From Bdellovibrio sp. (GTDB lineage: Bacteria; Myxococcota; SpSt-1050): DNA of 64,000 bases. The translations under genes were made by a program, and so were the position numbers. The notes below the pieces were generated by a model, which searched no databases, was not told the DNA's origin, and saw only the letters and a program-made list of their open reading frames with translations. This document shows, one piece after another, positions 7,053 to 42,095 of the stretch (within the stretch, counting starts at the first letter, position 1; the number at the start of each line of letters is the position of its first letter). The stretch covers positions 39,421 to 103,420 of the forward strand of contig DYEF01000046.1 of the NCBI GenBank assembly GCA_020725805.1. Direction: 5' to 3'.

Positions 7053-7979
7053 CTAAAAGATATACGAGAGCATAAATCCTATCTGTAAAGTAAACATAAG
7101 ATAGTACATATGGTGCCAGCTGGGATGATTTTCTGTAAGTTTTTCGAACGGGTCCTTGTCTATCATTCTGACGACGAAATGTCCCCAGACGGTACAGATG
7201 ACTCCGAGGGAAACGAGCAGATACCTGTTGCCGGTGAAATAGCCTGATAATGTGAGAAGAATAATCAGCAGGAAGGGGAGTGTATAGAAGGGGTAGATAA
7301 TCTTTACGGTCAGGTCCTTTCCGTACATGACCGGGAGGGTGTTGCAGCCGTTCGATTTATCCCCTTTTATATCTGCAAAGTCCTTGCTGTTTGTGGCGCC
7401 GAAGAGAAAGAGACCGAATATCAGTCCTATGAACCACGCCTCGGGGAGCAGGATAGACTTCGTGACAGACCATCCGGCGACCTTCAGAAGGATGCCCCGC
7501 GGTATTGCGATTGTCAGATTCGCAACCCATCCGTTCTTCTTGAATCTGAAAGGAGGTGCGCTGTAGAGGATTGTGGCAACCGCTGCCGCAAGAAACATCA
7601 GAAAGCATCCGGTGTTGATAAGCAGGGTTGAAAATACAGAGACAATATATAGTATCAGGGAGAATAATTTTGCCTCTTTTATGCTCATATCTCCTCTGAC
7701 CAGGACGCGTCCGGGCTTGTTGATACGGTCGATTTCGATATCATATATCTGATTGAGTACGTTCGATGCCGCATTCAGAAGGGATGCCATAACAGATGCT
7801 AAAGCGATTTTGATTATCCACAGTTCGGTTGTTTCCGAGTTGTGGGTAAATTTCGGACTTGCCCCGTAGGCAGTAATGGCTCCGCTTATTATCCCGAGGG
7901 CAGGGGCAATGAGGGTAAAGGGACGCATAATTTCTACGTATATTCCAACCGGACTTTTTGAAGTCTTTCTATCTGTCAT
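7053..7979 (-). CDS. UbiA-family membrane prenyltransferase
   Basis: 308 residues with eight to nine membrane segments. First Asp-rich motif NQIYDIEID (Asn76, Asp80, Asp84) and second KDFADIKGDKSNG (Asp200, Asp203, Asp207) coordinate Mg and the prenyl diphosphate. The KD..D..GD...G..TLP form is seen in the branch holding digeranylgeranylglyceryl-phosphate synthase, chlorophyll synthase and homogentisate prenyltransferases, more than in 4-hydroxybenzoate UbiA. It overlaps the upstream B12-type radical SAM gene by 11 bases, so it is translated from the same transcript. Together with the convergent prenyl synthase this suggests a prenylated lipid or quinone-like product modified by the radical enzymes. 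Acceptor unknown. Confidence 0.9.
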   Translation of the reverse strand: MTDRKTSKSPVGIYVEIMRPFTLIAPALGIISGAITAYGASPKFTHNSETTELWIIKIALASVMASLLNAASNVLNQIYDIEIDRINKPGRVLVRGDMSIKEAKLFSLILYIVSVFSTLLINTGCFLMFLAAAVATILYSAPPFRFKKNGWVANLTIAIPRGILLKVAGWSVTKSILLPEAWFIGLIFGLFLFGATNSKDFADIKGDKSNGCNTLPVMYGKDLTVKIIYPFYTLPFLLIILLTLSGYFTGNRYLLVSLGVICTVWGHFVVRMIDKDPFEKLTENHPSWHHMYYLMFTLQIGFMLSYIF

Positions 7980-9495
7980 ACCATTTTGGCTTGTAGAGGA
8001 GGTGGTAGTTCTTCGGGTCGAGCGGATTGAGTCTCATGTAGAGATTTCTAAGACCTACCTTTGAAGCCACAAGGAGCCACCAGATATACATATTTCTCTT
8101 GTATCTGTATTTTGAGGTAAGCCCTTTTACTATCCAGTCAAGCTGCAGGTATTCGGATGTTATTTCAGCCGTTATGTCGAGTATCTCCTCTCTTGTAAGA
8201 TACTCTGAATCCATAACGGGTGTACTCCAGTCGAATTCGTCGAAGGATATCTCTTTTAGCCAGCCGTTGGTAATAGCCTCGTCGTACATAACTGTCCCGG
8301 GCACAGGTGTCAGAGGATGGAATGCCGGAAAGTCGAGTCCGAGCCCCTTTGCATATTCTCCGAGTTTTTTCAGAGACTCCCGGCTCTCTTTTCGGTGCCC
8401 CACAATGAAAGTGCCCTGCAGGAAGACCTGAGGGTATTTCCGTCTGAAAATACTGATTACCTCTTCGGTCACGGACGGTTTGTAGAATTTCTTGTTGAAA
8501 GAGTCCAGTACGTCCTTTTCGACCCGCTCAATCCCGATACATATATGGACGAGACCGGACCTTACCATCTTCTCGAGTATCCCGTTTTTCTCGTCCCTCA
8601 GAAGGCAGTCCGCGCGCATAAAGGCAAACCACCAGACGGGGAGATTCTTTTTAAGAAGGAGTCCGGCGAATCTCTCATTCCATTCAGGGAGCAGATTGAA
8701 CGAATCATCTACGAAGATCATCATTCTTTTGTTGTGAACCCTGTAGAGGTATTCTATCTCTTCGACCGTATATTCCGGACTTTTGGTCCTGAACCGGGGA
8801 ATCAGCTTTATCTTCCCGTTTTCGATTCTGCGCTCGGCGTTATTGACCCAGAAGGCACAGAACGAGCATTTTCCTGTGCAGCCCCTCGAGTGATGGATTG
8901 TGGTCCCGCCGGGGGAGAAGAGATAGTCGGACTTTCCGTAGAGATGCATCGGAAGCATATCGTATGCGGGCAGAGGGAGTGAATCCAGATTCTCAATAAG
9001 AGGTCTGGGCTCCGTCATAATAATTCCGGAATCCCGTCTGAAGGCAATCCCCTTTACCTTCTCCACGTCGCCGGGTTTGTCTCTCAGATAACTGACAAGT
9101 TCCAGAAGAGTCTCTTCCCCCTCGCCAATAACAATATAATCGACGACATTTGAGGAGAGGGTCCACTCAACGGTATTTGCAAAATGGGTCCCGCCGGTAA
9201 TCGTGATGATATCTTTATCTATTCCCTTTGCGAGTTTGAGTACCCTGAGTGCCTCGGATGCATACATCGAGTGATTCTCCCCGACTGCAACAATGTCGGG
9301 CCGGTAGTCTATTATCTCTTTTGCAAGGGATTTATAGCCGATATGGAGCGGAAGGCAGTCGAGTATTTTCGTCTCAATCCCCGCTCTTCTGAGATAAGCC
9401 GCAAGGCAGATTAGGTTCTGCGGGACGAGATAATTATCCTGCTCGTGAATAAAAGGCCAGAAGGCCCTCGGGCCATGTATGAACATTACCTTCAT
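7969..9495 (-). CDS. B12-binding-domain radical SAM enzyme 1
   Basis: 508 residues. Residues 1-140 form a Rossmann-like cobalamin-binding domain: 'GGTHFANTVEW' (101-111) and 'DYIVIGEGEE' (119-128) are its usual landmarks. RGCTGKCSFC holds the cluster ligands Cys206, Cys210 and Cys213 (CX3CX2C). The C-terminus is basic and aromatic (KYRYKRNMYIWW) and lacks the FYLRP tail found in several of the other copies here. Known members of this architecture catalyse C-methylation, ring contraction, cyclisation or C-C coupling. Overlaps its upstream radical SAM neighbour by 4 bases (ATGA) and UbiA by 11, so the three are one operon. Substrate unknown, plausibly an isoprenoid. Confidence 0.9.
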   Translation of the reverse strand: MKVMFIHGPRAFWPFIHEQDNYLVPQNLICLAAYLRRAGIETKILDCLPLHIGYKSLAKEIIDYRPDIVAVGENHSMYASEALRVLKLAKGIDKDIITITGGTHFANTVEWTLSSNVVDYIVIGEGEETLLELVSYLRDKPGDVEKVKGIAFRRDSGIIMTEPRPLIENLDSLPLPAYDMLPMHLYGKSDYLFSPGGTTIHHSRGCTGKCSFCAFWVNNAERRIENGKIKLIPRFRTKSPEYTVEEIEYLYRVHNKRMMIFVDDSFNLLPEWNERFAGLLLKKNLPVWWFAFMRADCLLRDEKNGILEKMVRSGLVHICIGIERVEKDVLDSFNKKFYKPSVTEEVISIFRRKYPQVFLQGTFIVGHRKESRESLKKLGEYAKGLGLDFPAFHPLTPVPGTVMYDEAITNGWLKEISFDEFDWSTPVMDSEYLTREEILDITAEITSEYLQLDWIVKGLTSKYRYKRNMYIWWLLVASKVGLRNLYMRLNPLDPKNYHLLYKPKWYDR

Positions 9496-10898
9496 TTCAG
9501 CATCGCATAGATTCCGTAAAGCAGATTTTTCGGAGTAATGGTCCTGATGACGAAGAGGTGTCTGAAGACCATTTTGAGCCTCAGATAAAATCTCCTTGTT
9601 GCTATTTTCTGAAGATACAATAGTCTCTCGGCGGAGATTCTGTCCGTTGCCAGTGCCATCTTTGAGGGGTCGGGGTTGAAGGTTGTGAAATTCTCCCAGT
9701 CCTTTCTGTTCAGTTTTCCGCCCGATGAGAGCATATCGTATAACTGAGAGCCCGGAAAAGGGACGGTTACTGCAAACTTTGCAAAATCCACATCCGAATC
9801 GATAGCAAATCTGATAGTCTCTTCTATCTCCTCTTCCGACTCGTCCGGGAGTCCTATCATAAAGAGTCCGACAATATGAATCTTCTCCTCGTGCGCTGTC
9901 CGGATTATTTCTCTGGTAAGCTGGAGGTCGAGCCTCTTGTTTATGGAGTTGAGAACCCTCTGACTACCGGATTCTATTCCGAAGAGCAGTCTTCTGGCGC
10001 CGGCACGGTACATCAGGTTCAGAAGTTTTTTATTGAGTCTGTCGGGCCGTGTCTCTGATATCCATACGACCTTTTTATTTATCCCCCTTCTGATTAGTTC
10101 CTCGCAGAAGAGGGTTGTATGTTCTTCCTCGAACGGAAATATCGGGTCGATAAAACCGACCTGCCTTACATTGAATCTTTTATGCAGATATTCGAATTCA
10201 TCTGCGATCGATTCCGGTGACCGCTTTCTGTAGATCTTTCCCATATAGTCAAGGGAACAGTATGTGCATCTGTACGGACATCCCCTCGAGCCGGAGACTG
10301 AGAGCGTAGGTTTTGCGATATCGGCAAAGGGGAGCATTCCGTATGATTTATAGGGAAAGAGTTCCCACGACGGAAACGGAAACGAGTCCAGATTTCTCGG
10401 AGGTTCCCTGTCGCCGGTATTAACTGTAGTACTTCCTTCCCTGAAAGCAATCCCCTTTATCTCCCTCAGAGGTTTTTTGCCTGTTATTGCGCTGATTATC
10501 TCAACAATGCTCTCTTCCGCCTCGCCGTGTGCAATTATATCGGCAAGTCCGCTTCCGAGAAAATCCTCATAAAAGAGACTTGCGTGGATTCCTCCGAGAA
10601 TAATTTTTGTGTCTTTATTCTGTTCCCTGATTATTTTGCACATATTTTCGACAACGGGTGCCGACGGTGTGAGAGTGGTAATGCCGACGATGTCGGGCTG
10701 AAAAAGAAGAAGTCTCTTTTTCAGGTCGTCATACGAGAGTTCCTGCCCGAAATAATCCATTACCTCGACTTCAAGTCCCTCTCTTTTCAGGATAGAGGCA
10801 ATGTAGGCAAGTCCTATACAGGGCATTGCCTGCAGGAGTTTGGAAAATCTTCCAAATCTGTCCTTGACTATTGGCGGATTGATCAGTAGGGCGCGCAC
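9492..10898 (-). CDS. B12-binding-domain radical SAM enzyme 2
   Basis: 468 residues, starting at GTG. The B12-type domain spans 1-145 with LGGIHASLFYEDFL (101-114) and HGEAEES. Cluster cysteines are 207, 211 and 214 (RGCPYRCTYC). The closest relative in this window is the gene ending at 15300: both have CS.D....I.R.RSPE after the cluster, a 'GKLNRKDWENF'-type loop and a FYLR tail. The start codon has only a weak ribosome site of its own and overlaps the stop of a 16-codon upstream ORF by one base, suggesting translational coupling. First long gene of the operon that continues to UbiA. Confidence 0.9.
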   Translation of the reverse strand: MRALLINPPIVKDRFGRFSKLLQAMPCIGLAYIASILKREGLEVEVMDYFGQELSYDDLKKRLLLFQPDIVGITTLTPSAPVVENMCKIIREQNKDTKIILGGIHASLFYEDFLGSGLADIIAHGEAEESIVEIISAITGKKPLREIKGIAFREGSTTVNTGDREPPRNLDSFPFPSWELFPYKSYGMLPFADIAKPTLSVSGSRGCPYRCTYCSLDYMGKIYRKRSPESIADEFEYLHKRFNVRQVGFIDPIFPFEEEHTTLFCEELIRRGINKKVVWISETRPDRLNKKLLNLMYRAGARRLLFGIESGSQRVLNSINKRLDLQLTREIIRTAHEEKIHIVGLFMIGLPDESEEEIEETIRFAIDSDVDFAKFAVTVPFPGSQLYDMLSSGGKLNRKDWENFTTFNPDPSKMALATDRISAERLLYLQKIATRRFYLRLKMVFRHLFVIRTITPKNLLYGIYAMLK

Positions 10899-10948
10899 TA
10901 TTTCTTCGGTCTGATTCCTTTGGGTCTTGGATTCGGTCTCCAGTTCAT
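10898..10948 (-). CDS. 16-residue basic leader peptide upstream of radical SAM enzyme 2
   Basis: An ATG six bases behind a perfect GGAGGT opens a short ORF encoding MNWRPNPRPKGIRPKK. Its TAG stop shares its last base with the GTG start of the radical SAM gene. A sigma-70-like promoter lies just upstream, so this is the first ribosome entry point on the transcript. The peptide has seven Arg/Lys and four Pro in 16 residues. It could simply deliver ribosomes to the poorly initiated GTG, act as a stalling leader, or be a small protein in its own right. Too short for homology; existence is supported by signal strength and placement only. Confidence 0.55.
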   Translation of the reverse strand: MNWRPNPRPKGIRPKK

Positions 10949-10974
10949 TAAAACACCTCCGATTAACAAATTGT

Positions 10975-11003
10975 TATATACCAGTTGCAAATAATATTGT
11001 CAA
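10975..11003 (-). promoter_or_regulatory. Promoter of the leader-radical SAM-radical SAM-UbiA operon
   Basis: On the minus strand TTGACA, 17 bases and TATATA: a perfect -35 and a good -10. The predicted start lies about 20 bases before the leader ATG, leaving room for its GGAGGT. Confidence 0.65.
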
Positions 11004-11050: not shown

Positions 11051-12457
11051 TTATCGCAGGATCTTTCTGAACTGGTTTGCAACAAGGTGAATACCGAATC
11101 TGACCAGAGTGGAAAGGTCTACTTTATAGAAGAGGTTTCTGATGCGCGAAGGTCTGAGATAGAATCTGATGTATCCGAGTGTCTGGAAGTATTCGAGTCT
11201 TGCACGCGGGACGGAGTCCAGTTCGAGGGTATTGCCTACGATTCTTCCGGTAGCCTCATACGATTCGCTTTTCAGTCTGAGTCCTCCGATTCCTCTCTTT
11301 GCCCACTCATATACCTCGGTGCTCGGAAACGGTGCAAGGATTGCGAGATTTATGAAATCCGGGTCTGTTTTCATTATAAAGTCAATTGTCTGTTTTATGG
11401 TCTCCTCGTTTTCGTACGGCAGACCGAGAATGAAATTTGTATCTACCTTTATTCCGGCCTCCTTCGTCCATCTGATCGCCTGTTCGGTCTGTTCGAGTGT
11501 AAATCCCTTTCTGATTCCGTCCAGTATCCTCTGGTTTCCGCATTCGGCACCGTATACAATCGAAAATACGTTTGCCTCTTTCATTGCCCTGAGCATCTCC
11601 TTGTTTACCCTGTCTATTCGTGTGGAGGCAATATATCTTACTTTGTTGAGACCCCTTTTGGCTATCTCGCTGAAAAGGCTGATTGTGTATTCGGGTTCGA
11701 TTGTAAGAGTATCGTCTGCAAAGAATATCTGAGTGGCTTTGTACTCCCTTATGTCCCTTTCTATCTCGTCTGCCACCGACTGAAAGGACCTCGTTCTGAC
11801 ATTGTGGCCCATAGGCTGGTAACAGAAGACGCATCTGTTTGGACACCCCCTTGCGGTAATTACAGGGATTTCAATACCTCTGAAATAGTGTGGTTTGTAT
11901 TTTTCAAACGGGAAGCCTGTAAAATCCGGCATCGGGAATTTGTCTATCTCTGTCTCCAGCTCTCTGGGAGGATTTACACTGATTTCGTCTCCGGTTCTGT
12001 ATGCAAGACCTTTGACCTTCTCCAATTCCGCATTGTTTTTCAGCGAGTTTATCAGTTCCAGAAGTGTATATTCACCTTCTCCGAACACAACGAAGTCAAT
12101 GGATTTGTATCTCCTGAGTGTGTCTTCGGGGAGTGCGCTGGGGTGAGAGCCTCCGACAACCACTTTGATATTCTTGTTTATTTCCTTGATTCTGTCGGCG
12201 AGATAGGCTCCGTCGTCCATCTCGGATGTGCAGTGGATATTTATTCCTGCAATATCAGGAGAAAATTCGTTTATTACATCCCTGAGAGCGCTTAATGGTT
12301 TTCTGTATGCACGGGCGTCGAATATCCTGCTCCCTATACCGCTGTTCTTCATAAATGCGTGCAGGTATGCAATCCCCAGCGGCGGACCCTTCTGGTTCAT
12401 TCCGAGTTCCTTGTCGATTCCGAAAGTGTGATATGGCACAATAAAGAGTATTTTCAT
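11051..12457 (-). CDS. B12-binding-domain radical SAM enzyme 3
   Basis: 468 residues from MKILFIVPYH; an extension of 11 codons upstream is open but unlike the family start. B12-type domain 1-145 with VGGSHPSALPEDTL (101-114) and FGEGEYTLLEL. Cluster cysteines 205, 209 and 212 (RGCPNRCVFC), followed by YQPMG. The C-terminus has the IRFYLRPSRI tail shared with several copies in this cluster. It stands alone with its own promoter, separated by about 100 bases from the leader ORF downstream. Same general chemistry as its neighbours (radical methylation or rearrangement with cobalamin); substrate unknown. Confidence 0.9.
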   Translation of the reverse strand: MKILFIVPYHTFGIDKELGMNQKGPPLGIAYLHAFMKNSGIGSRIFDARAYRKPLSALRDVINEFSPDIAGINIHCTSEMDDGAYLADRIKEINKNIKVVVGGSHPSALPEDTLRRYKSIDFVVFGEGEYTLLELINSLKNNAELEKVKGLAYRTGDEISVNPPRELETEIDKFPMPDFTGFPFEKYKPHYFRGIEIPVITARGCPNRCVFCYQPMGHNVRTRSFQSVADEIERDIREYKATQIFFADDTLTIEPEYTISLFSEIAKRGLNKVRYIASTRIDRVNKEMLRAMKEANVFSIVYGAECGNQRILDGIRKGFTLEQTEQAIRWTKEAGIKVDTNFILGLPYENEETIKQTIDFIMKTDPDFINLAILAPFPSTEVYEWAKRGIGGLRLKSESYEATGRIVGNTLELDSVPRARLEYFQTLGYIRFYLRPSRIRNLFYKVDLSTLVRFGIHLVANQFRKILR

Positions 12458-12477
12458 ACAATACCTTTGCTTTTCAT

Positions 12478-12506
12478 AATATAATGTCAAACACAGACAA
12501 AAACAA
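12478..12506 (-). promoter_or_regulatory. Possible promoter of radical SAM enzyme 3
   Basis: On the minus strand TTGTTT, 17 bases and TATATT. The predicted start is about 14 bases before the ATG at 12457, which agrees with the shorter start. Confidence 0.42.
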
Positions 12507-15299: not shown

Positions 15300-16679
15300 T
15301 CAGTTGTTTTTAAAGAGTAGTGAAAAAAGAACCTTTTTTATCTGCCTTGGTCTGAGGTAAAACTTTAAATGGGCCAGAAACAAATTCCTGACGAGTTCTT
15401 TACTGCTCTGAAATCTGTTAATATTAACAAGTCCGTCCGGATGTGTAGTGAAAGTAAGATAATTGTTCCAGTCGGGTCGTTTGAGTCTTCCGCTTTTGTA
15501 ATATTCATCGAAGAGAGGAGAGCCTGGCAACGGAACCGTGATCGCAAACTTTGCAAAGTCAAGATTGAGTTCGCAGGCATATTTTATGGTTTTCACAGTG
15601 TCCTCTTTTGTCTCATTAGGCAATCCGATCATAAAAAGCCCCGCTGCTTCTATGCCCTCGTCTTTGATAATCCTGCATGCCTCCTTGCCCTTATTCACAG
15701 ACGTGTTTTTATTGATATCGTTTAGTAATTTGTCTACTCCTGATTCAAAACCAAGGTATATTCTTGCACATCCGGCTTTTTTTACCAGTCTTATCAGGTC
15801 TTTTTCAACATAATCTGTTCTCATTCCGCAGACCCATTTTATTTTTTTATGAATGTTACGGCTTATGAATTTTTCCAGTAGTTCTATAGTGTATTTCTTG
15901 TTTATTCCGAAGTTTGGCTCCAGAAACCATATATGGTCTATTCCAAAGTCTTTTATGAGATATTCAATTTCTTCAATAATGTTTTCTGGCGATCTGTAAC
16001 GAGGTATTCGTGCGTATTTGTCAAAGGAACAGAAGCTGCATTTATAGGGGCAGCCTCTGGCATTGAACATCGGCACGCCTCTTGCGCCCAGTTTCACAAG
16101 GGCATTCATATCGTATTTTAATGGATTAATCAGAGACCAGTCCGTAAATGGAAGTGCGTCGAGGTCCATTGGCGGAATTCCTCTCCGAGTACTTATACAC
16201 TTCCCCTTTTCGAAATATGAAATGGAAAAAAGGGATGCCGGGTTTGATTTGCTTCCGGTTATGTCGATTAATCTAATTATTGTCTCTTCACCTTCTCCGT
16301 GTACAACATAGTCACATAGTCCTTCACATATCCATTTTTCAGCCATAAAGCTCGAATGAAGGTTTCCGGTAATAATTATTGTATTTTTAGATACCTGCCT
16401 CGTTCCGATACATATTTGTTCTGCGATCCGGGCGGCTGGGGTCAAGACGCCGATTGCCAGAAAATCTGGTTGTCTTTTTTTTATTATTTGAATTACCTGA
16501 TTTACGTTTAATTTCTGATATTCCATATCTATTAACTCAACATTGTGCCCCTTATTCTTTACAGCAGAAGCAACATGCAAAAGGCTTATTGGGTGAAAAG
16601 GTTTATAAAAGTATTTAAAAATACCGTATTTTTCTATATCTATTGACGGGTTGATAAAAAGAAAATTACAGCCTGCCAT
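15300..16679 (-). CDS. B12-binding-domain radical SAM enzyme 4
   Basis: 459 residues. B12-type domain 1-145; the usual GG.H motif is ITGNLHSSFMAEKW (104-117), so Asn replaces the second Gly. Cluster cysteines 210, 214 and 217 (RGCPYKCSFC). Resembles enzyme 2 in the post-cluster segment (RYRSPENIIEEIEYL), in the 'GRLKRPDWNNYLTF' loop and in the LKFYLRPRQI tail. Codon use is AT-rich, unlike enzyme 2, fitting acquisition from a different genome. Lies 3 bases after the stop of the next radical SAM gene, so they are co-transcribed. Substrate unknown. Confidence 0.9.
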   Translation of the reverse strand: MAGCNFLFINPSIDIEKYGIFKYFYKPFHPISLLHVASAVKNKGHNVELIDMEYQKLNVNQVIQIIKKRQPDFLAIGVLTPAARIAEQICIGTRQVSKNTIIITGNLHSSFMAEKWICEGLCDYVVHGEGEETIIRLIDITGSKSNPASLFSISYFEKGKCISTRRGIPPMDLDALPFTDWSLINPLKYDMNALVKLGARGVPMFNARGCPYKCSFCSFDKYARIPRYRSPENIIEEIEYLIKDFGIDHIWFLEPNFGINKKYTIELLEKFISRNIHKKIKWVCGMRTDYVEKDLIRLVKKAGCARIYLGFESGVDKLLNDINKNTSVNKGKEACRIIKDEGIEAAGLFMIGLPNETKEDTVKTIKYACELNLDFAKFAITVPLPGSPLFDEYYKSGRLKRPDWNNYLTFTTHPDGLVNINRFQSSKELVRNLFLAHLKFYLRPRQIKKVLFSLLFKNN

Positions 16680-25987: not shown

Positions 25988-26119
25988 TTTGACCTCCATC
26001 TTAAGCAGAACGCATTAATAATTACATTACATATAGTAAAAAAGCAAATCATTTTTAACAGACTGTAAAAAGCCGTATTCGGGAAACAAGTCGGTCCGGC
26101 AATTATTCGTTCCGGTTTC

Positions 26120-32730: not shown

Positions 32731-34181
32731 TGGCTGATATACTCTTTATAATGCCCCGTATTGGATATATGGATTCGAGACGGAGTCATCCGGCGGTTCC
32801 TCTCAGTATCCTGAGCGCTGCAAATCTTGTCTCAAGGGAATTCGGTGTAAAGATACTCGATATGCGAATCAGCAACTCTTTTGAGGAAGAACTGAAGACG
32901 GAACTGCTGAAAAAGCCGCTTCTGGTAGCCTCAACCTGCTGGACAGGTCCTATGATAAGAGATGTAGTCAGGGTAGCGAGGTTTGTAAAGAGATATGGGG
33001 ATATCCCTGTGGTTCTGGGCGGTGTCCATCCTACCCTGCTCCCTGAGCAGACCGTACTCTCCCCTTTTGTTGATTTTGTGATTACTGGCGAAGGAGAAGA
33101 ATCCCTTCTGAAACTTGCAAGGGTATTGAAAAACGGGGGGAGCATCGGCGACGTTCCGAATCTCTGTTACAAAAAGGACGGGAAAGCGGTATCTACATTC
33201 AGGTCGGATTTCCTGAAACTGGATGAGCTCCCGGAACTGCCTTACCATCTTATAGAAGTTACGAAATATCTTCCGCTCTATCAGGGGAGAAGGAGTATAT
33301 CAATCGAGAGCTCGAGGGGATGTCCGTTCAGATGCAGATACTGCTATCAGGGACCTTTCAACAGACAGCAGATAAGGTTTGTCTCGGCAGATAAGGTTGT
33401 AAAGTCGGTAATAAATCTGAGGGACAGATACGGTGTGGAGGATTTTTATTTTATCGATGACAATTTCTATATCGATATGGAACGTGGCAAAGAGATTGCG
33501 CTGGGGCTTCAGGGCAGGGGAGTAACATACCAGATTCAGGGTGTGGATATTCTCTCTCTGTCGAAGATGAGCGACGAGTATTTCTCTCTTCTGGAGAGAA
33601 GCGGTCTCAGACGTCTGACAATAGGGATTGAGACCGGTTCCCCGAGACTCAGGGAGTATCTCGGTAAAAAGGGTGATGTTGAGACTATCATAGAAGTTGT
33701 GAAGAGACTCTCTAAACACAATATCATCATATATTGCAGTTTCTTCGGAGGATATCCGGAGGAGACAGTCGAGGATGTAAGGATGAGTATTGACCTTATG
33801 CTCAGGCTCATCGGCTTAAATCCCAATTTCAGAACCTCTCCTTACTATATATATATTCCTTTTCCCGGGACCCGGATGTATGAAGAGATAGTAAAAGCCG
33901 GCAGATTCAGGGAGCCCAAAACGTTCGAAGAGTGGGGTGATTTTTCGTGGGAAGACAATCCATATATCAGGACTCTCGGGAGAGAGAAGGCAGAGCTTTA
34001 CAGGCGGCTATATCTGCTCACTCTTTTTGCAGATGACAAGTACAGGGAGTATGAGTATTCATCCCTCAGAAAGGCAGCGGCATCGCTTTATCACAGAATT
34101 GCATATCTGAGGTTAAAGCACTTCTGGCTCAGATATATGCCGGAAATGTTATTGTATAAAAATTTGTTTGGTGCTGAGTAA
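32730..34181 (+). CDS. B12-binding-domain radical SAM enzyme 12
   Basis: 483 residues. B12-type domain 1-140 with LGGVHPTLLPEQTV (96-109) and ITGEGEESLLKLA, both classical. Cluster cysteines 198, 202 and 205 (RGCPFRCRYC) followed by YQGPFNRQQIRFVS. Barrel strands 'DFYFIDDNFYIDMERG' and LTIGIETGSPRLREYL. C-terminal 100 residues are helical and charged with aromatic clusters (WGDFSWEDNPYIRTL). Last radical SAM gene before the CrtI-like oxidoreductase, which starts right after its stop. Substrate unknown; adjacency suggests the two act on the same lipid-like compound. Confidence 0.9.
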   Translation: MADILFIMPRIGYMDSRRSHPAVPLSILSAANLVSREFGVKILDMRISNSFEEELKTELLKKPLLVASTCWTGPMIRDVVRVARFVKRYGDIPVVLGGVHPTLLPEQTVLSPFVDFVITGEGEESLLKLARVLKNGGSIGDVPNLCYKKDGKAVSTFRSDFLKLDELPELPYHLIEVTKYLPLYQGRRSISIESSRGCPFRCRYCYQGPFNRQQIRFVSADKVVKSVINLRDRYGVEDFYFIDDNFYIDMERGKEIALGLQGRGVTYQIQGVDILSLSKMSDEYFSLLERSGLRRLTIGIETGSPRLREYLGKKGDVETIIEVVKRLSKHNIIIYCSFFGGYPEETVEDVRMSIDLMLRLIGLNPNFRTSPYYIYIPFPGTRMYEEIVKAGRFREPKTFEEWGDFSWEDNPYIRTLGREKAELYRRLYLLTLFADDKYREYEYSSLRKAAASLYHRIAYLRLKHFWLRYMPEMLLYKNLFGAE

Positions 34182-34182
34182 T

Positions 34183-35685
34183 ATGGAGACAGAAAGAGTG
34201 TATGATGTGATCGTTGTAGGCGGAGGTATCGGAGGACTTTCTGCGGGCGCAATACTGTCGAAGAAGGGATATTCGGTGCTCCTGCTTGAAAAGAATAGTC
34301 TGCCGGGAGGGAACTGTAATTATTTCGAATATTCCGGTATCAGGTTCGAGTTTGCTGTCCACCAGATAACAACCATTGGTTCAGATACGGGCATGGGCTG
34401 GTTTTTGAGAGAACTGGGAATCAGGACTGAGTTTATCAGAATAAACGACCTGCTCGACATATATTATCCGGAGAGAAGTTTCAGGATTTCGGGTAGTTTC
34501 GATAGTTACCTCGATGCCCTGAACCGGTTCAGAAGCTGTAAGCAGAACAGGGAGTATATCGCATTCCTGAGGGATGTAAGTTGTCTGGTAGAACACTATG
34601 ACTGGCTTTTCAGTGGTAAAATATTAAGTCCGCCGGAGATGAATCTTCCGTTTTGTGTGAGAGGTCCGTTCTCTCTCTTCAGGTTTCTTAAGAGTGCAGA
34701 TATGACCTCGGAGCAGTTTATGAAGAGATTTTTTCCGGCGATAGCGGATAACGAAATGGCTTATTTTCTTGCCCCGTATATAGGTCTGCCGCCCGACAGA
34801 AGTGCGGCTATTATGAATATCTGTGCAAACTCCTCTTATCTCTCAAAGGGTTCGTATTATCCTGCCGGAGGAAGCAGGGCTCTTTCGGAGGCGTTTTGTG
34901 ATGTTATAAAAAATAATGGCGGGAGTGTTTTATTGAACAGCGAGGTAACTGAGGTCAGAAAGAGAGAAGGTAAATTCAGGGTATCAACCCGGGGTGGCGG
35001 TATTTACAGCTCAAGGGCTCTCGTTCTCAACGCCCCCGTGAAGTATGCTCTTGATAGAATTATCGCCGGAGGTGAAGAGCCTGACGAATACAAAAGGAAG
35101 ATAGAAAAACTCGCTTGCTCTCTTTCTCCTCTGAGAATCTTCTGCATTTACGAGGGAGATACATCTGTCTTTGATAAGATGGGTTATGAGAGTTTTATGT
35201 ATGAGTCTTCTTCTCTCAGGCAGTATTTTGCAGATATTATGGATGGCAAATATTCCGGATTTTCGGTTCTTCTGCCGTTTAAGATAGACCCTGAAAACCG
35301 GCAGGGCAACAGGGTTCCTGTTATTATAACAACCCTTACCAAATACCTTACGGATGAGGAGTTCGAGGTGCGGAAGGAATCTGTTCTTGACAGGATTTTC
35401 GGAATACTCGATAAATATGCAAAGGGCATTTCGTCCGGGATTCAGATTGCATCGATACTGACCCCGGAGGGCCTGAAAAAAAGGACAAATGTGGACAGCG
35501 GGGCTATGTATGGATGGGAATGTTCACCCGGACAGGCTCTTTTCAACCGCTTGAAGCAGGAGACGAATATCGAAGGAATGTTCTTGAGCGGCCACTGGAC
35601 GAGACCTGTAAACGGAATATCCGGAGTGATCAGGTCCGGAACCGCCTGTGCAAAACTGGTGAGCAGGTATCTGAAAAGGCATTAA
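34183..35685 (+). CDS. CrtI/RetSat-like FAD oxidoreductase
   Basis: 500 residues from the ATG directly after the previous stop; TTG and GTG codons five and four codons earlier are alternatives. N-terminal Rossmann motif VIVVGGGIGGLSAGAIL, then EKNSLPGGNCNYFE, as in phytoene desaturases, carotenoid isomerases and retinol saturases. 'YYPAGGSRALSEAF' and 'GGSVLLNSEVTEVR' match the family's middle region, and the C-terminal SGHWTRPVNGISGVIRSG is the second FAD contact. The family desaturates, saturates or isomerises long polyene or prenyl chains. It is the last gene of the radical SAM operon, so it probably acts on the same isoprenoid-like compound. Reaction direction cannot be told from sequence. 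Confidence 0.88.
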   Translation: METERVYDVIVVGGGIGGLSAGAILSKKGYSVLLLEKNSLPGGNCNYFEYSGIRFEFAVHQITTIGSDTGMGWFLRELGIRTEFIRINDLLDIYYPERSFRISGSFDSYLDALNRFRSCKQNREYIAFLRDVSCLVEHYDWLFSGKILSPPEMNLPFCVRGPFSLFRFLKSADMTSEQFMKRFFPAIADNEMAYFLAPYIGLPPDRSAAIMNICANSSYLSKGSYYPAGGSRALSEAFCDVIKNNGGSVLLNSEVTEVRKREGKFRVSTRGGGIYSSRALVLNAPVKYALDRIIAGGEEPDEYKRKIEKLACSLSPLRIFCIYEGDTSVFDKMGYESFMYESSSLRQYFADIMDGKYSGFSVLLPFKIDPENRQGNRVPVIITTLTKYLTDEEFEVRKESVLDRIFGILDKYAKGISSGIQIASILTPEGLKKRTNVDSGAMYGWECSPGQALFNRLKQETNIEGMFLSGHWTRPVNGISGVIRSGTACAKLVSRYLKRH

Positions 35686-35745: not shown

Positions 35746-35764
35746 TTTGTGCAAGGAGGTATTT

Positions 35765-36529
35765 ATGAAGAGAAATAGTACAAATATTATTCTGGTTATT
35801 ATTGCAATTATATCGGTATTAGGCCTGCTTAAGTGCAGTTCTTCCTCGGATGGCGACGGAGACGGTACAACAGACACACAGGTCGACCCTGTTTCAAAGG
35901 TCTGTTCAAATATTCCGAAATGTTTCGGAGGTTCATATCCGGCATTTTTCGGCAAATCCAAAAAGGAGTGTATGACGAAGGTCGGTGAGAATCTGAGCGA
36001 TGACGAGGTTGACACGTTGATCGAGGCCGGAACAAAATGCGACGAGATTACTCCGGTTATCAAGGCGTACGAAGGAAAGAAGACCTGTGAGATACTCAAG
36101 GGATGTATGGGAGATGCCGAATTTGCGAATCTGTTCGGGACAATAGACGGTTGCGTATCATACGGAAACAATAAAGGAATCAAGGAAGAAGATTTTAAGT
36201 GTGTGGACCAGAACAGTTCGAACTGTGAAGTTATTGCCAACTACTGCCTCGCCAAGTATAATCCTGACGCAGGTGTTGAAGATGCCGGCGAGGATGCAGG
36301 TGAGGACGCCGGAGAGGAGAAGGCCTGTGTTACAGATACAAAAAGCTATTACTGTGTTGATGTGTGTGATAAATTCTATACCTGTACCGGACAGTATTGC
36401 CCGCAGGGAGGCTGTACCAAGGAGAGTTGTATACACGGCTGCAATACAGAGTCGGTCTTTACGGTCGAACTGATGTGTTGCATAATGGAAAAGTCCTGCA
36501 GCGAGATCAACACCTGTCTTCCCAAGTAA
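35765..36529 (+). CDS. Cys-rich lipoprotein with Asp/Glu-Ala-Gly linker
   Basis: 254 residues from the ATG four bases after GGAGGT. Signal sequence ends VLGLLKC (Cys24). Lys before Cys is unusual for a lipobox, so lipidation is likely but not certain. An acidic DGDGDG linker follows. Two Cys-rich helical parts (about 45-155 and 195-254; ICSNIPKCF-like and 'CVDVCDKFYTC') flank a linker with VEDAGEDAGEDAGEE. This composition is typical of surface or periplasmic lipoproteins of deltaproteobacterial and myxococcal lineages. Own consensus promoter; 15 bases before the GT2-fusion gene. Function unknown. Weakly similar in layout to the lipoprotein at 25364. Confidence 0.78.
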   Translation: MKRNSTNIILVIIAIISVLGLLKCSSSSDGDGDGTTDTQVDPVSKVCSNIPKCFGGSYPAFFGKSKKECMTKVGENLSDDEVDTLIEAGTKCDEITPVIKAYEGKKTCEILKGCMGDAEFANLFGTIDGCVSYGNNKGIKEEDFKCVDQNSSNCEVIANYCLAKYNPDAGVEDAGEDAGEDAGEEKACVTDTKSYYCVDVCDKFYTCTGQYCPQGGCTKESCIHGCNTESVFTVELMCCIMEKSCSEINTCLPK

Positions 36530-36544
36530 AGACACTGATGGTAA

Positions 36545-39031
36545 ATGAAAATATCTCTTGTCATCCCCTGTTTTAATGAAGCGGATATCATATCCAGTGT
36601 TATCGGAGATTTAGAAAATTCGCTGAAGAAATACGGTTTTGAGGAGACTGAGATTATCTTTGTTGATGACGGGAGTAAGGATAATACGGCTGATATTATC
36701 CGCTCTTCTTCGGTCCCGAATCTCAGACTAATTCCGACCGGGCATCTGGGACTTTCCCACGCCCTTTTTACAGGCATAAAGGAGGCGACGGGAGATATTA
36801 TCGTAACTATCGATGCAGACGGACAGTTCTCATTTGATGATGTCCCGCGTTTTATAGAGACACTTATAAAAAACGACGCCGATATTGTCACAGGTTACAG
36901 AATAAAAAGAAACGATAATCCAGTCAGGGTAATAAGCTCGAAGTTTGCGAATTTTGTCAAGAGGGTGATTCTTAAAGACGATATCTATGATTCTACCTGC
37001 ACGCTTAAGGCATTCAGAAGAGAGGTCAGGGAGAGGATTCTGTACGGATTCGACGGATTTCACAGGTTCATTCCGTCTTTTGCCCTGATGAATAACCTGA
37101 AACTCATTCAGATTCCTGTTGAACACAGGGACAGGCGCGGAGGTAAGGCAAAGTTCGGAATTATTAACCGTCTTCCGGATGTGATACCCGATGTTCTGGG
37201 AGTAAGATGGCTGCAATACAAACGTTTTTCGACTGATGCAGACGAGAGGAGATACTCCTTCTATCCAGACCTGCTCTTTCTTCTGCTCTTTCTTTATGTC
37301 GCATCAGGATTGTTTGGCGGATACTTCAGGGTTGTGGACGATTTCTGGCTTTACGGCTCTCTCAACCGCTTCATCGGGTATGATTACTCAAAGAGTTACG
37401 GATGGGAGAACTTCGTCTTCAACGAGATTGTTCCTCCCTTAATCAGGCTCTTCTATGCAGTCGTTATGAACCTTGGCAGACTGCTCGGAGTAAAATATCC
37501 CCTTGAGTGGGCAAATAAGGTTATCGGTATTTCAGTTACATTTTCGTCGTACTTTCTCTTTGGCAGATTCTTTAATCTCTTTTTCAGAAGAAATTACGCA
37601 AAGTGGATTTCCCTGCTTATTGTATTCTGGGGTATTTCGTCTTCGGAAATCTACTCGGGGCTTGCAAGGTCATTCTCCTATATACTCATTCCGTTCCTGC
37701 TTATATTCTCACGGAATTTGTCAGTAATAGGACTTTCTGTAATTTCCTTTCTGACGGCCCTTATCTATCCCGTGCTACTCCCTCTCTTTTTCCTGACGAT
37801 TCTCCTGACGTATCTGTTCGGCAATATAAAAAGCATTTATAAATCGGCAGTTCCTGTAATATCCGGACTGGCAGGGCTTTTGCCTATGGTATACAAAATA
37901 AATCTGATGTCTTTTAGTCCGGCAACAGAGGGAGACACCTTTCTGGGCAAGAATAATATCTTCAATCTGCATATTTCATCTGATTTCGGTCTTCTCTTCG
38001 GATTTACAAAGGACATAGGTTTTATAGAGTGGATAAATTTCAATTTTCTCCACCAGTGGATACTTAATGATGAACTGACTGCTATTATAAGATTATCACT
38101 GATTGTTTTTCTTTTGTCTGGAATTTTCAGAAGGCTAAGCGGCAACAGTAAGAGCCATGTGGATATTTTCGTTTTTCTGTTTACTGTTCTCTTTTTTCTG
38201 CTCGCACTCCACAGGAGGGAATATGTCGATTTATCGTACCTTTTCAAGTGGGGTCTGCTCTTGTCGGCCGTTTATACCGTTGCAGGTATTGTAAAAACTG
38301 ATGATTTGAGAAGATATAAGACAGTATTCGTTTTTGCTCTCTCGTCGCTGGTGGCCTTCTTTATAACACATGTCCTGTCAAGAAAGTTTGGTTTCGGGGT
38401 TCACGAGCCCGGAAGACAGCTCCAGAGGGCTTTTGCAGTAATCTTTCCCTTTGCAGCATCGGTCTTTTATTTCAATGTGTATAAGAGTACGGGCGGATAC
38501 AAAAGAGCGCTTGTTATTGTGCTTATATGTCTGACAGGAATCCTCTTCTTCCCGAAGCTGAAACTTGTCTCGCCCAATGACAAATATGTAATCGAGAGGT
38601 TACAGGGACTTCCGAAGGGTAGTCTTGTCCTTTCTCACCCTCTTACTGCCAACTGGGTGGTCAGTCATACAGACAAGTATTCAACGATTATTGACGAGCA
38701 GATTCGTGCCACGAAGAAAAATCCTATAAGAGGGTCTGAGGAGAGGATTATGCCGACAGAGATGACGGCAATCGTTCTAGAAATCTATTACGGAAAGAAT
38801 CTCGAGAAGGTCTATGACTGGTGCAGCAGTAATCAGAACGGCTATATTCTGGTTGAGGAATACTATTATTCTGACCAGTTTTTTAATACAAGAAGGGAAC
38901 CGTATATAAGTTTTGTCGAGAGACAGAATCCTGAAAGGAGTTTTCCTCTTTTGGGTATTCCGCTGAGTCTCAGGCATCCGGTAACTCCCGAAACATTTCT
39001 TCTTTCCTGTAAAGAGTTGACCATCAGATGA
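36545..39031 (+). CDS. GT2 glycosyltransferase fused to a large membrane GT-C-like domain
   Basis: 828 residues. Residues 1-235 are a DPM1-like GT2 domain: 'KISLVIPCFNEADI', 'EIIFVDDGSKDNTA', TIDADGQFSFDD (metal site), then HRDRRGGKAKFG. Residues about 240-670 carry around ten to twelve membrane segments. 'FRVVDDFWLYGSL' at the start resembles the first acidic loop of GT-C enzymes. About 150 soluble residues end the protein, as in ArnT-like enzymes. One polypeptide would thus make polyprenyl-phosphate-sugar and transfer the sugar across the membrane. Separate genes do this at 21717-23908. Overlaps the next GT-C gene by 4 bases (ATGA). Fusion is clear; sugar and acceptor are unknown. Confidence 0.83.
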   Translation: MKISLVIPCFNEADIISSVIGDLENSLKKYGFEETEIIFVDDGSKDNTADIIRSSSVPNLRLIPTGHLGLSHALFTGIKEATGDIIVTIDADGQFSFDDVPRFIETLIKNDADIVTGYRIKRNDNPVRVISSKFANFVKRVILKDDIYDSTCTLKAFRREVRERILYGFDGFHRFIPSFALMNNLKLIQIPVEHRDRRGGKAKFGIINRLPDVIPDVLGVRWLQYKRFSTDADERRYSFYPDLLFLLLFLYVASGLFGGYFRVVDDFWLYGSLNRFIGYDYSKSYGWENFVFNEIVPPLIRLFYAVVMNLGRLLGVKYPLEWANKVIGISVTFSSYFLFGRFFNLFFRRNYAKWISLLIVFWGISSSEIYSGLARSFSYILIPFLLIFSRNLSVIGLSVISFLTALIYPVLLPLFFLTILLTYLFGNIKSIYKSAVPVISGLAGLLPMVYKINLMSFSPATEGDTFLGKNNIFNLHISSDFGLLFGFTKDIGFIEWINFNFLHQWILNDELTAIIRLSLIVFLLSGIFRRLSGNSKSHVDIFVFLFTVLFFLLALHRREYVDLSYLFKWGLLLSAVYTVAGIVKTDDLRRYKTVFVFALSSLVAFFITHVLSRKFGFGVHEPGRQLQRAFAVIFPFAASVFYFNVYKSTGGYKRALVIVLICLTGILFFPKLKLVSPNDKYVIERLQGLPKGSLVLSHPLTANWVVSHTDKYSTIIDEQIRATKKNPIRGSEERIMPTEMTAIVLEIYYGKNLEKVYDWCSSNQNGYILVEEYYYSDQFFNTRREPYISFVERQNPERSFPLLGIPLSLRHPVTPETFLLSCKELTIR

Positions 39032-40365
39032 TTGACAGAAACGATATCTTCCCGCTGATAATTATTCTGGCTATTTCTGTAATCCTCTTTGCTCTCTTTC
39101 TGCACAAGAGACCGTTTACGGACGAAGGTTCTTTCTGCACCATTGCACAGGCAGTATCAAAGGGAGCAGTGTTGTACAAAGATATTTATAATGAAAAGGC
39201 CCCGCTTCCTTATCTGATTGCATCGGTTTTTGTTGGCCTCGGAGAGAATCCGCTGATCGTGTTACGGGTCGTAGCCTTTGTGTTCTTTCTCGCTTCTGTC
39301 TTTTTGCTATATCTGCTCGGAAAGATAAATCTCTTGCAGCCTCTCGAAAATACTGTGGTGTCATGCTTTTATATTATTACAGCGCCGCTCTTTCAGTCGT
39401 TTAATTTCACATCCGAGATTCTTGCGCTCCCTTTAATTCTTTTTATTGTATGGCAGGTAAAGAGGGACGATGACGGCAGGATAAATATTCTGACCGGATT
39501 CTTTACCGGTATGCTCATATTCATCAAGCAGCCTTTTATCTTTTTTATCCTTCTTACTCTTCTCTTTGCCCTTCTATCGAAGAATATGAGGAAGAATTTT
39601 CTTGCCGGTCTGATATTGTCGCTGCTGTTTCTCGTTCTTTTGCTGAAATATAAAGGAATATTAGGACCGTTTATTGAAAACACCATATTTACCCTCAAGA
39701 GATACGACATAAAATCATATATGAGACTCCCGTATCCGAATGAGTATTATCAGTTTGCCCTGCTGGGATTTGTGTTTCTGGCATCGGTGTATTCGTTTGT
39801 AAGAAGGTCGACCGGTCTTTATGAGTTTTTGGCAGTATTAAGCCTGCTCATAATGGGAATTGTGAGAATGGATGCCTTCAAGATGCTCCCGTTCTTTGCG
39901 GTTATGTTTTATGTAATTCTGAGAAAAGAGATAGCCGGCAGTATTAAAAATACAACATTCGTTATGGTAATGCTGTCCCTGATGTCGTTATGGCATTACA
40001 GGGAGATTCTCGAGCAGCGCTTCGACCAGATTAAGGCCATCAGTTATACGATAGAGGCAAAGACCGGTCCTCAGGAGAGTATCTGGGTAGGTCCGCACGA
40101 GGCCAATATATACTGCCTTTCGAAGAGGAGACCTTCTTCGAAATACTTCTTCCTTCTGCCGTGGATAAACAAGCCTGAGGTTCTGCTGACCCTTGGAGAG
40201 GACCTGACAAGAAGAGACCCTCCTGCGTGTATCGTGGATGTCTCTGCCTTCAATAAAGCCACAGAATATCATCTGAGCAGTATGCTTCCGGAGCTCGGTA
40301 TAATAGTAAAGGATTACATGGAGGTTCACGAGATAAGCGGGGCGATTATTTATTGTAAAAAATAA
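39028..40365 (+). CDS. GT-C (GT39/ArnT-like) membrane glycosyltransferase
   Basis: 445 residues, about ten membrane segments. The first loop carries RPFTDEGSFC (Asp32, Glu33), followed by VLYKDIYNEKAPLPY, the pattern of dolichyl-phosphate-mannose-dependent-like transferases and related bacterial GT39 proteins. The last 110 residues are periplasmic, with 'YCLSKRRPSSKYFFLLPW'. It would take a sugar from a polyprenyl-phosphate carrier, possibly supplied by the fused GT2 encoded just upstream. The downstream LpxB-N-like small gene is often found with such enzymes. Acceptor unknown. Confidence 0.82.
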   Translation: MIDRNDIFPLIIILAISVILFALFLHKRPFTDEGSFCTIAQAVSKGAVLYKDIYNEKAPLPYLIASVFVGLGENPLIVLRVVAFVFFLASVFLLYLLGKINLLQPLENTVVSCFYIITAPLFQSFNFTSEILALPLILFIVWQVKRDDDGRINILTGFFTGMLIFIKQPFIFFILLTLLFALLSKNMRKNFLAGLILSLLFLVLLLKYKGILGPFIENTIFTLKRYDIKSYMRLPYPNEYYQFALLGFVFLASVYSFVRRSTGLYEFLAVLSLLIMGIVRMDAFKMLPFFAVMFYVILRKEIAGSIKNTTFVMVMLSLMSLWHYREILEQRFDQIKAISYTIEAKTGPQESIWVGPHEANIYCLSKRRPSSKYFFLLPWINKPEVLLTLGEDLTRRDPPACIVDVSAFNKATEYHLSSMLPELGIIVKDYMEVHEISGAIIYCKK

Positions 40366-40377
40366 CGGAGTATTGAT

Positions 40378-40656
40378 ATGGAACTGAAAAACCTTGATTT
40401 CTGGCTTGTCTTCGGATTTCTGGGACAGGCATTTTTCTTTATGAGATTCTTTGTTCAGTGGATTGTGAGTGAAATAAAAAAGAAGAGCACTATACCTAAT
40501 GCATTCTGGTTTCTGAGTCTTCTCGGAGGAATAACTCTATTGATATACGCTATTCACAGACAGGACCCTGTATTTATTATCGGTCAGGCGGGCGGACTTA
40601 TTATCTATTTCAGAAATATTATGCTGCTCAAAAGAGAGGCAAAACCGGCAAAATGA
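40378..40656 (+). CDS. Stand-alone lipid-A-disaccharide synthase N-terminal (LAB_N) domain protein
   Basis: 92 residues with three membrane helices. 'FGFLGQAFFFMRFFVQWI' followed by SE..K.S.IPNAFW and 'LLIYAIHRQDPVFIIGQ' is the LAB_N signature found ahead of some LpxB enzymes and as small separate proteins next to polyprenyl-phosphate glycosyltransferases. CGGAG precedes the ATG. It has no catalytic LpxB domain, so it is probably a membrane partner or flippase-like helper of the flanking GT-C enzymes. Overlaps the next radical SAM gene by 4 bases. Confidence 0.9.
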   Translation: MELKNLDFWLVFGFLGQAFFFMRFFVQWIVSEIKKKSTIPNAFWFLSLLGGITLLIYAIHRQDPVFIIGQAGGLIIYFRNIMLLKREAKPAK

Positions 40657-42095
40657 ATTTTCTCTTTATACAGGATACGATAGACTCCGAATCCATAGGC
40701 CTTGCATATATTTCGGCAGTTCTCAAAAAGGCAGGACACCGCACAGAGTTGTTCATTGCATCCCTTGAAGACAGACTCTTTGAGAAGATCCGTGATTTTT
40801 CACCGGACGCGGTTCTCTTTTCGGTTATTATAACGAAACAGGATTACTATGACAAACTGGGCAGGGAACTGAAGAGACGTTTTCCCGGCATAAGAATAAT
40901 AGCAGGCGGGCCTTATGTTACACTCAAGACGTCTTTTGCGGAAAACGATTGGATGGATTTCGGAGTAATCGGTGAGGGAGAGGAGGCCACCGTCGAACTG
41001 GCTCAGGCTCTTGAAAAAGGACTTGATATCAGAGGCATTAGGAACATTATATACAGGGAAGATGGCAGAACCGTTGTCAACGAACTGCGTGAACTGAACG
41101 AAGATCTGGATGCTCTTCCGCTTCCTGACAGGTCCCTCTATCTGAAATATAACTCATTCAGAAATCTGACTGTCAAACGTTTCATCAGCGGCAGGGGGTG
41201 TCCTTATTCCTGTACCTTCTGTTTTACGAGAAAACTCAGGGATATGTACAGCGGAAGGGGAAGGTATATCCGCAAGCATTCAGTCGAAAGGGTGTGTGAA
41301 GAGATTAATCTTATGAGAAGGGAATCAGTTGTAAAGACAGTCCATTTCTCTGATGATATATTCCTGACAGACTCGAAATGGCTGACGGAGTTTTACAATG
41401 TATATCCCGGAAAGGCCGGAGTACCGTTTCAGTGCAATCTGACAGCCAATATTATCAGCGAGGAGACGATAAGGCTTCTTAGCGAGTGCGGACTGAGGGG
41501 TGTCGGAATCGGGCTCGAATCCGGAGTCGAGAGAATCAGAAACAGTGTTTTGGGGAAGAGATTCTCGAACGAAGAAATAATCAGGGTTTCGGAAATTCTT
41601 CATAAATACAATGTCGAAATCTATACCTACAATATGATAGCGCTTCCCGGTGAAAAGATAGATGATGCAATCGAAACGCTGAATCTGAATATCAGGATGG
41701 GCGTTAAGATTACGCAGTGTAATATCGCAATTCCCTTTGAGGGTCTGCCCCTTACGGATATGGCCGTTGAACAGTCTTTGCTGAGCGATAATTCTGTTGT
41801 GTCGCAGATGAAGAGGAGGCCCGAATCACCGATCATAAAGGTCGAAAACCCCGAACAGTATGAGCGGCTGTTTTTACTCTTTCCCTTCCTCGCAAGGATA
41901 AGGGCAGGTAATAAATTGATAAAGACACTTGTCAGACTCCCGCTGAATTTTGTTTACAGATTGCTTCACAGGATTAGTTATTTTTTGAATATGAAGAAGT
42001 ATTATGATATCTCTCTCTTTTCGGGACTGAGGATTTTTCTGGATATCAGGAAAGGGGAGCGGTATCTCAGGAAAGTGTTTAGGCAATGGCTCTGA
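40653..42095 (+). CDS. B12-binding-domain radical SAM enzyme 13
   Basis: 480 residues. Short B12-type domain 1-125 with AGGPYVTLKTSFAE (84-97), where Tyr replaces the usual His, and VIGEGEEATVEL. Cluster cysteines 183, 187 and 190 (RGCPYSCTFC) followed by FTRKLRDMYSGRGRYIR. GIGLESGVERIRNSVLG is the fourth-strand motif. The C-terminal 100 residues are basic and aromatic with no FYLRP tail. It sits inside the glycosyltransferase operon rather than the radical SAM operon, tying radical chemistry to the glycan or lipid-sugar pathway. Substrate unknown. Confidence 0.9.
   Translation: MNFLFIQDTIDSESIGLAYISAVLKKAGHRTELFIASLEDRLFEKIRDFSPDAVLFSVIITKQDYYDKLGRELKRRFPGIRIIAGGPYVTLKTSFAENDWMDFGVIGEGEEATVELAQALEKGLDIRGIRNIIYREDGRTVVNELRELNEDLDALPLPDRSLYLKYNSFRNLTVKRFISGRGCPYSCTFCFTRKLRDMYSGRGRYIRKHSVERVCEEINLMRRESVVKTVHFSDDIFLTDSKWLTEFYNVYPGKAGVPFQCNLTANIISEETIRLLSECGLRGVGIGLESGVERIRNSVLGKRFSNEEIIRVSEILHKYNVEIYTYNMIALPGEKIDDAIETLNLNIRMGVKITQCNIAIPFEGLPLTDMAVEQSLLSDNSVVSQMKRRPESPIIKVENPEQYERLFLLFPFLARIRAGNKLIKTLVRLPLNFVYRLLHRISYFLNMKKYYDISLFSGLRIFLDIRKGERYLRKVFRQWL

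Follow-up and report, generated by a model that had tools for sequence, protein, structure and literature searches.

This study focused on a dense cluster of radical S-adenosylmethionine (SAM) genes in the genome of an uncultured Bdellovibrio sp. (GCA_020725805.1), carried on a 64,000-nucleotide stretch of contig DYEF01000046.1 (positions 39,421 to 103,420, here called the window). Thirteen B12-type radical enzymes, together with prenylating and sugar-transferring genes, span about 40 kb, and the locus probably builds a heavily modified envelope lipid or glycolipid. Genes are named by their first position in the window (Table 1), and the label B12-type refers to domain architecture, from which binding and use of cobalamin are predicted only. 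As judged from their sequences, the thirteen form a non-redundant set and not a tandem expansion, and they belong to a radical-enzyme set whose conserved but modular character is well supported by sequence comparison. A more specific reading, put forward tentatively as a good possibility, is that of one large cluster making a prenyl-derived, radical-tailored and glycosylated envelope lipid, for which we infer the single product, its class and each of the reactions.

Domains were identified with Pfam, and membership of named families was judged against curated NCBIfam cut-offs. PF02310 and PF04055 occur together in twelve genes (7969, 9492, 11051, 15300, 16683, 18808, 23905, 26158, 28663, 30101, 32730 and 40653), and CX3CX2C is present in 12/12 of these, as a first-pass annotation of this DNA had described. 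Class-B architecture, in which an N-terminal B12-binding-type domain precedes the CX3CX2C core, is thus recognised by Pfam in 12 of the 13 members, and in 31459, which has PF04055 but no Pfam B12 domain, by predicted fold only. The AlphaFold model of 31459 (predicted local distance difference test score, pLDDT, 78) retains a Rossmann fold at the N terminus, predicted with confidence, and aligns with AprD4, TsrM, MgmA and OxsB along almost the entire chain, so that the earlier description of its B12 domain as degenerate fits the sequence but not the fold. A decayed copy had also been reported, and the PF02310 match at 18212–18727 agrees with this, there being no radical SAM core in any reading frame. 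The window genome (G000) is 3.29 Mb in size and 97.9% complete, and 13 of its 19 PF02310 matches (the 12 intact genes and the relic) lie within 34 kb (binomial p ~4e-22, under a null that takes genes as independent), a concentration far from chance.

Comparisons were made with a genome of the same genus (G001, 97% complete), one of the same order but another family (G002), Myxococcales bin-0880 (G196) and a further member of the phylum (G091). These relatives are fragmented bins and comparison is cut at contig ends; genes of the high-GC relatives were found by codon-aware calling and tblastn, and counterparts are best matches within fetched loci combined with tree position, not genome-wide reciprocal orthologs. 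The window paralogs share only 16–35% identity, and trees of 90, 86 and 38 rows, from which GrsA/B, HpnP and Fom3 references were left out, divide the thirteen genes into about nine groups. Genes of other genomes fall into every group but that of 23905, and into that of 11051 at best weakly. Support in the 38-row tree (ultrafast bootstrap/Shimodaira–Hasegawa-like approximate likelihood ratio test) was 100/100 for the 7969 group, 100/99 for each of 31459, 32730, 30101 and 28663-16683-18808, 100/98 for 40653, 99/96 for 26158 and 92/98 for 9492-15300. That a single gene recently expanded in place, leaving copies that are redundant or decaying and no multi-step pathway, is therefore next to negligible as an explanation. 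Duplication and loss do occur, as seen in the truncated relic and the pair of paralogs 9492/15300, but the identity between paralogs is low and the trees already contradict such an expansion, since the supported splits join window genes to those of other lineages and not to each other. The relic is itself most like an intact gene on contig C93 of G001 (39%). That contig carries its own dense B12-type radical SAM cluster (~23000–33000; L039, L040), of about six genes and a SPASM-type gene, in other subfamilies than the window and at low GC (0.32–0.36).

The genes are tightly organised. Unit A (11051-9492-7969-7053) lies on the minus strand and ends with the UbiA-family gene 7053, which overlaps 7969 by 11 bp, while units B (25364 to 15300, minus strand) and C (26158 to 44966, plus strand) diverge from one 158-bp gap. 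Most neighbours within units overlap or nearly touch, the widest gap in unit C being 287 bp, before 40653. Since 4536 and the polyprenyl synthase 5970 border UbiA 7053 on its flanks, the gene set begins at about 4.5 kb. The run of co-directional genes extends past 42095 to 44966. The extent first drawn was 7969–42095, and 4536 was not among the radical SAM genes listed then. The other members noted at that stage were all found again: the SPASM-like 27632, and the interleaved UbiA 7053, GT2 glycosyltransferases 23201 and 36545, PMT/GT-C-like 39028 and CrtI-like 34168. No cobalamin riboswitch or other Rfam RNA was found in the window at gathering score.

In the single-pathway reading, 5970 would make a prenyl diphosphate that UbiA 7053 joins to an acceptor, and the prenylated product would then be modified at several carbons by the non-redundant radical SAM enzymes. 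Each member of this set (the thirteen B12-type proteins, the SPASM protein and 4536) might have a reaction of its own, be it methylation, ring closure, dehydration or rearrangement; saturation could be altered by the CrtI-like 34168, and the GT2/GT-C pairs may add sugars at the periplasmic face. In favour of this reading are the tight units, the distinct subfamilies that other lineages share, and the resemblance of 23201 and 36545 to polyprenyl-phosphate-sugar synthases. UbiA 7053 matches PF01040 above its cut-off and has the Asp-rich motifs of the family. A housekeeping role for it was rejected, as G000 has two UbiA genes besides 7053 and G001 also has two.

Most of the radical SAM subfamilies recur in G002, G196 and G091, often clustered. 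Counterparts of 7969 (55% in G002, 51% in G091, 48% in G196) and of 9492 (50% in G002, 36% in G196, 34% in G091) are direct neighbours in G002 and G196, and in G091 they lie within 10 kb. In G002 the 30101 type (43%) adjoins the 31459 type (32%) and a 32730 copy (38%), with further 32730 copies at 43% and 38%, and genes of the 26158 type share a contig with the 7969/9492 counterparts. The 40653, 30101, 31459, 32730 and 28663 types are all present in G196, several of them clustered. In G091 a stretch of ~27 kb holds the 7969, 9492 and 31459 types, the 40653 type (31%) followed by an SGNH hydrolase, and SPASM and GT2 genes, and the 30101 and 28663 types adjoin each other on another contig; SPASM genes also lie within the clusters of all three lineages. 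The trio of UbiA, polyprenyl synthase and 4536 recurs in G002 and G196, where the UbiA relatives show 60% and 45% identity, the neighbouring 4536 homologs 45% and 44%, and the 5970 homologs 25–28%. The recurrence of this trio, of the 7969/9492 pair and of the 30101-31459-32730 types, and the G091 stretch with its 40653-SGNH pair, also argue for one pathway.

Several findings weigh against it. G001 is without the core; what it shares with the locus is limited to 18808 (70%) and a syntenic block of glycan type with seven genes (35747–43617), although its contig begins at this block, so that the upstream neighbourhood there is unseen. The trio with UbiA and the radical SAM genes occupy different contigs in both G002 and G196, which leaves their linkage there unproven. 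In G091 the 7969/9492 types are not accompanied by this UbiA at E<=1e-30; what that genome carries instead are DegT, MocA, AMP-ligase and U32 genes. Homologous sets elsewhere are accompanied by chorismatase, U32 peptidase, DegT and AMP-ligase genes, and a comparison of the clusters for common beta-propeller or GT-C partner families gave no sequence match, GT2 domains excepted. With partners varying from lineage to lineage, these enzymes may serve as a toolkit for different final products. The UbiA trio, the 7969-9492 pair, the 30101-31459-32730 set and the 35747–43617 block are separable modules. Joint conservation in relatives had been proposed at the outset as the check on a single pathway, and the outcome is divided: most subfamilies do recur together in three lineages, but conservation is modular, a same-genus genome is without the core, and partners elsewhere differ.

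The main rival explanation is that two or more pathways lie side by side, one for a prenyl lipid (4536, 5970, 7053, 7969, 9492 and part of the radical SAM set) and one for a surface glycan (35747–44966, perhaps with 20264–23908), whose B12 enzymes act on sugars. It is a serious possibility, if a somewhat doubtful one. In its favour, G001 has inherited the 35747–43617 block by itself, a Solidesulfovibrio plasmid set amid glycan genes falls in the 26158/40653 clade, and the solved fold nearest to both modelled radical SAM proteins (31459 and 9492) is that of AprD4, an enzyme with an aminoglycoside substrate; against this, 40653 directly continues unit C across its 287-bp gap, its type shares the G091 stretch with the 7969, 9492 and 31459 types, and nucleotide-sugar genes are absent from the window.

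Within the phylum, this UbiA occurs in 2/195 genomes at E<=1e-30, and 7969 in 3/195 at >50% identity. In a collection of named genomes the close relatives of UbiA 7053 are confined to two Acidobacteriota (49–50%; L053, L055) and three Thermoplasmatota (37–39%; L056–L058), a patchy pattern of sequence matches which suggests lateral transfer. Between 4536 and the polyprenyl synthase of G002 lies a short gene (L026, 2214–2564), a putative HEPN-type (HEPN/MNT) antitoxin-toxin element.

Two other products would also start from a UbiA reaction. A prenylated aromatic, quinone- or chromanol-like, for which UbiA would attach a prenyl group to an acid derived from chorismate and the radical enzymes would tailor the product, is improbable. 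In its favour is G196, where an FkbO/Hyg5-like chorismatase (G196:C740:21869–22993, L084) is directly upstream of, and on the same strand as, 7969/9492-type genes. In G091 a gene of the U32 peptidase family comes just before the counterpart of 7969, and UbiA 7053 carries an NQxxDxxxD motif, known also from homogentisate prenyltransferases. However, the chorismatase turned up only in G196 and not in G000, G001 or G002, for which reason it was rejected as a general partner, it scores 204 bits against an NCBIfam cut-off of 325, and the profile matches of the UbiA are ambiguous. The second product, an archaeal-type ether lipid with UbiA as digeranylgeranylglyceryl phosphate (DGGGP) synthase and the B12 enzymes as ring or methyl enzymes of lipids like glycerol dialkyl glycerol tetraethers, is highly improbable. 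The branch of DGGGP synthase and chlorophyll synthase shares fold family and Asp motifs with UbiA 7053 and holds its nearest solved relatives, DGGGP synthase being the nearest, and the archaeal UbiA relatives were found only in Thermoplasmatota, one beside isopentenyl-pathway genes. Set against these points, 7053 is below both cut-offs (ChlG 119/313 bits, DGGGPS 100/296 bits), no Tes-type enzyme is found here (27632 scores 39/450 bits), and geranylgeranylglyceryl phosphate synthase (GGGPS, PF01884) was not found in G000, G001, G002 or G196 while control archaea gave matches, and so this lipid class is disfavoured.

The remaining genes are listed in Table 1. The CrtI-like 34168 was tried as a conservation marker and rejected, its phylum matches being distant (nearest 30%). 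Two proteins of ~490 aa (13749–15230 and 20264–21727), with ~5 transmembrane (TM) segments each, have no Pfam match, and the two Cys-rich probable lipoproteins of units B and C each stand beside radical SAM or glycosyltransferase genes. A pair of CoA-transferase subunit genes (45126–46891) follows the cluster and was not found beside the syntenic G001 block.

Table 1. Features of the locus in window coordinates. Scores are from Pfam or NCBIfam profiles, percentages are identities, and TM counts are from a simple hydropathy rule.
Feature	Position	Strand	Evidence
Variant radical SAM, CX10CX2C, NF045502 type	4536..5783	-	NF045502 166 bits, above cut-off 125
Polyprenyl diphosphate synthase	5970..7025	+	PF00348 3e-54
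UbiA-family prenyltransferase, pathway-specific extra copy, unit A	7053..7979	-	PF01040 2e-41
B12-type radical SAM, unit A	7969..9495	-	Pfam; own clade with G002, G091, G196 genes
B12-type radical SAM, unit A	9492..10898	-	Pfam; next to the 7969 type in G002, G196
B12-type radical SAM, unit A, 152 bp upstream of 9492	11051..12490	-	Pfam; no firm counterpart elsewhere
B12-type radical SAM, unit B, paralog of 9492	15300..16679	-	Pfam; groups with 9492 in trees
B12-type radical SAM, unit B	16683..18080	-	Pfam; 28663/18808 group
Relic, truncated B12-binding domain	18212..18727	-	PF02310, 37 bits
B12-type radical SAM, unit B	18808..20217	-	Pfam; 70% counterpart in G001 C121, other context
Membrane protein, weak beta-propeller similarity, unit B	20264..21727	-	TIGR03866 5e-08, below cut-off; ~5 TM
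Multi-TM, probable GT-C glycosyltransferase, unit B	21717..23228	-	~9 TM; no family match; adjoins GT2
GT2, polyprenyl-phosphate-sugar synthase type, unit B	23201..23908	-	PF00535; ArnC-type 61 bits, below cut-off
B12-type radical SAM, unit B	23905..25383	-	Pfam; long isolated branch, no counterpart in related cluster
Cys-rich probable lipoprotein, first gene of unit B	25364..25999	-	Read from sequence
B12-type radical SAM, first gene of unit C	26158..27651	+	Pfam; groups with two genes of G002 C105
SPASM radical SAM, unit C	27632..28675	+	PF04055 and PF13186
B12-type radical SAM, unit C	28663..30141	+	Pfam; 38% in G196, 37% in G091
B12-type radical SAM, unit C	30101..31462	+	Pfam; 43% in G002, 36% in G091
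Radical SAM with diverged B12-type domain, unit C	31459..32730	+	PF04055; clade with G002, G196, G091 genes
B12-type radical SAM, unit C	32730..34181	+	Pfam; three G002 copies 38-43%, two G196 copies 32-35%
CrtI-like flavoprotein, unit C	34168..35685	+	TIGR02734 103 bits, cut-off 238
Cys-rich probable lipoprotein, unit C, genus-conserved block	35747..36529	+	67-72% in G001 C119
GT2 (polyprenyl-phosphate-sugar synthase type) fused to multi-TM region	36545..39031	+	PF00535 7e-30; ArnC-type 95 bits, below cut-off; 62% in G001
PMT/GT-C-like membrane glycosyltransferase	39028..40365	+	PF13231 weak; 58% in G001
B12-type radical SAM, genus-conserved block	40653..42095	+	Pfam; 72% in G001
Block protein without assigned function	42086..42688	+	48% in G001
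GDSL/SGNH hydrolase or acyltransferase	42685..43620	+	PF13472 7e-11; 55% in G001
Multi-TM, probable GT-C, last gene of unit C	43617..44966	+	~8 TM; 59% in G001

Returning to the prenyl-derived glycolipid, a still bolder claim would be that this is a pathway class not seen before, with about fifteen radical SAM enzymes acting in sequence on one prenyl-derived, glycosylated envelope scaffold and at least six B12-type subfamilies serving as a toolkit across several deltaproteobacterial lineages; we consider this unlikely, though worth stating. If all the enzymes do act on one molecule, the locus would represent an extreme of anaerobic C-H functionalisation and, because no member reaches the cut-off of a named family, would be a place to find new chemistry. 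The subsets that are conserved (7969/9492; 30101/31459/32730; UbiA/prenyl synthase/4536) offer small units open to direct testing, and the unusual lipids of such bacteria could be unrecognised biomarkers.

The enzymes belong to no named family: all are far below the curated NCBIfam cut-offs, and none of the 13 reaches that of a named B12-type radical SAM family. BchE (TIGR02026) and HpnJ (TIGR03471) are the best-scoring curated profiles for most members, and are alike in domain order and length, but the best scores are 243 bits (9492) against a cut-off of 481 for BchE and 202 bits (11051) against 578 for HpnJ; BchE references fall outside the window subfamilies in trees, and the window has no chlorophyll or hopanoid genes. 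HpnR likewise gives at best 121 bits (9492; cut-off 650). AprD4, a radical SAM diol dehydratase (6fd2), is the closest solved fold for the models of 31459 and 9492 (pLDDT 89 for the latter) and the best sequence-profile match in the PDB, but identity is 20–22% and the AprD4 profile reaches at best 110 bits (9492; cut-off 500), and the similarity in fold does not show that the reaction is the same. OxsB, HpnJ, PbsB and BchE are non-methylating B12-type radical SAM enzymes that form rings or rearrange (PMC13142503), and since many others methylate, individual reactions here are not assignable.

At the level of whole clusters, the ladderane-type clusters of Kuenenia and Desulfotalea combine type II fatty acid synthesis (FASII) genes with four to six SAM genes (PMC2649909). 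They resemble the present locus in having several radical SAM genes, phytoene-desaturase-like flavoproteins, a glycosyltransferase and a lipid context (PMC2649909), but the window has thirteen B12-type members and no fatty-acid synthesis gene (no FASII gene among the window genes scanned), the ladderane-associated profile TIGR04072 gives at best 143 bits (30101; cut-off 360), and 34168 fails the CrtI/phytoene desaturase cut-off (TIGR02734), being CrtI-like only. Plasmid clusters of Citrobacter portucalensis and Solidesulfovibrio carbinolicus also pack radical SAM genes together with lipid- or glycan-type genes, the lipid-type ones being desaturase, PAP2 and GH3-type ligase genes, but have about five members or fewer, of other subfamilies, and no UbiA trio. 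The C. portucalensis example (L140, 4621–16007), with five radical SAM genes, a GH3-type ligase, an N-acetyltransferase, a PAP2 phosphatase and a fatty acid desaturase, appears from its gene content to be a small lipid-like B12-type cluster in an enterobacterium. A literature search, with most subscription papers outside its reach, found no described cluster of the gene content seen here, and the thirteen non-redundant B12-type enzymes in one locus are more than in any cluster found in the searches or the literature consulted.

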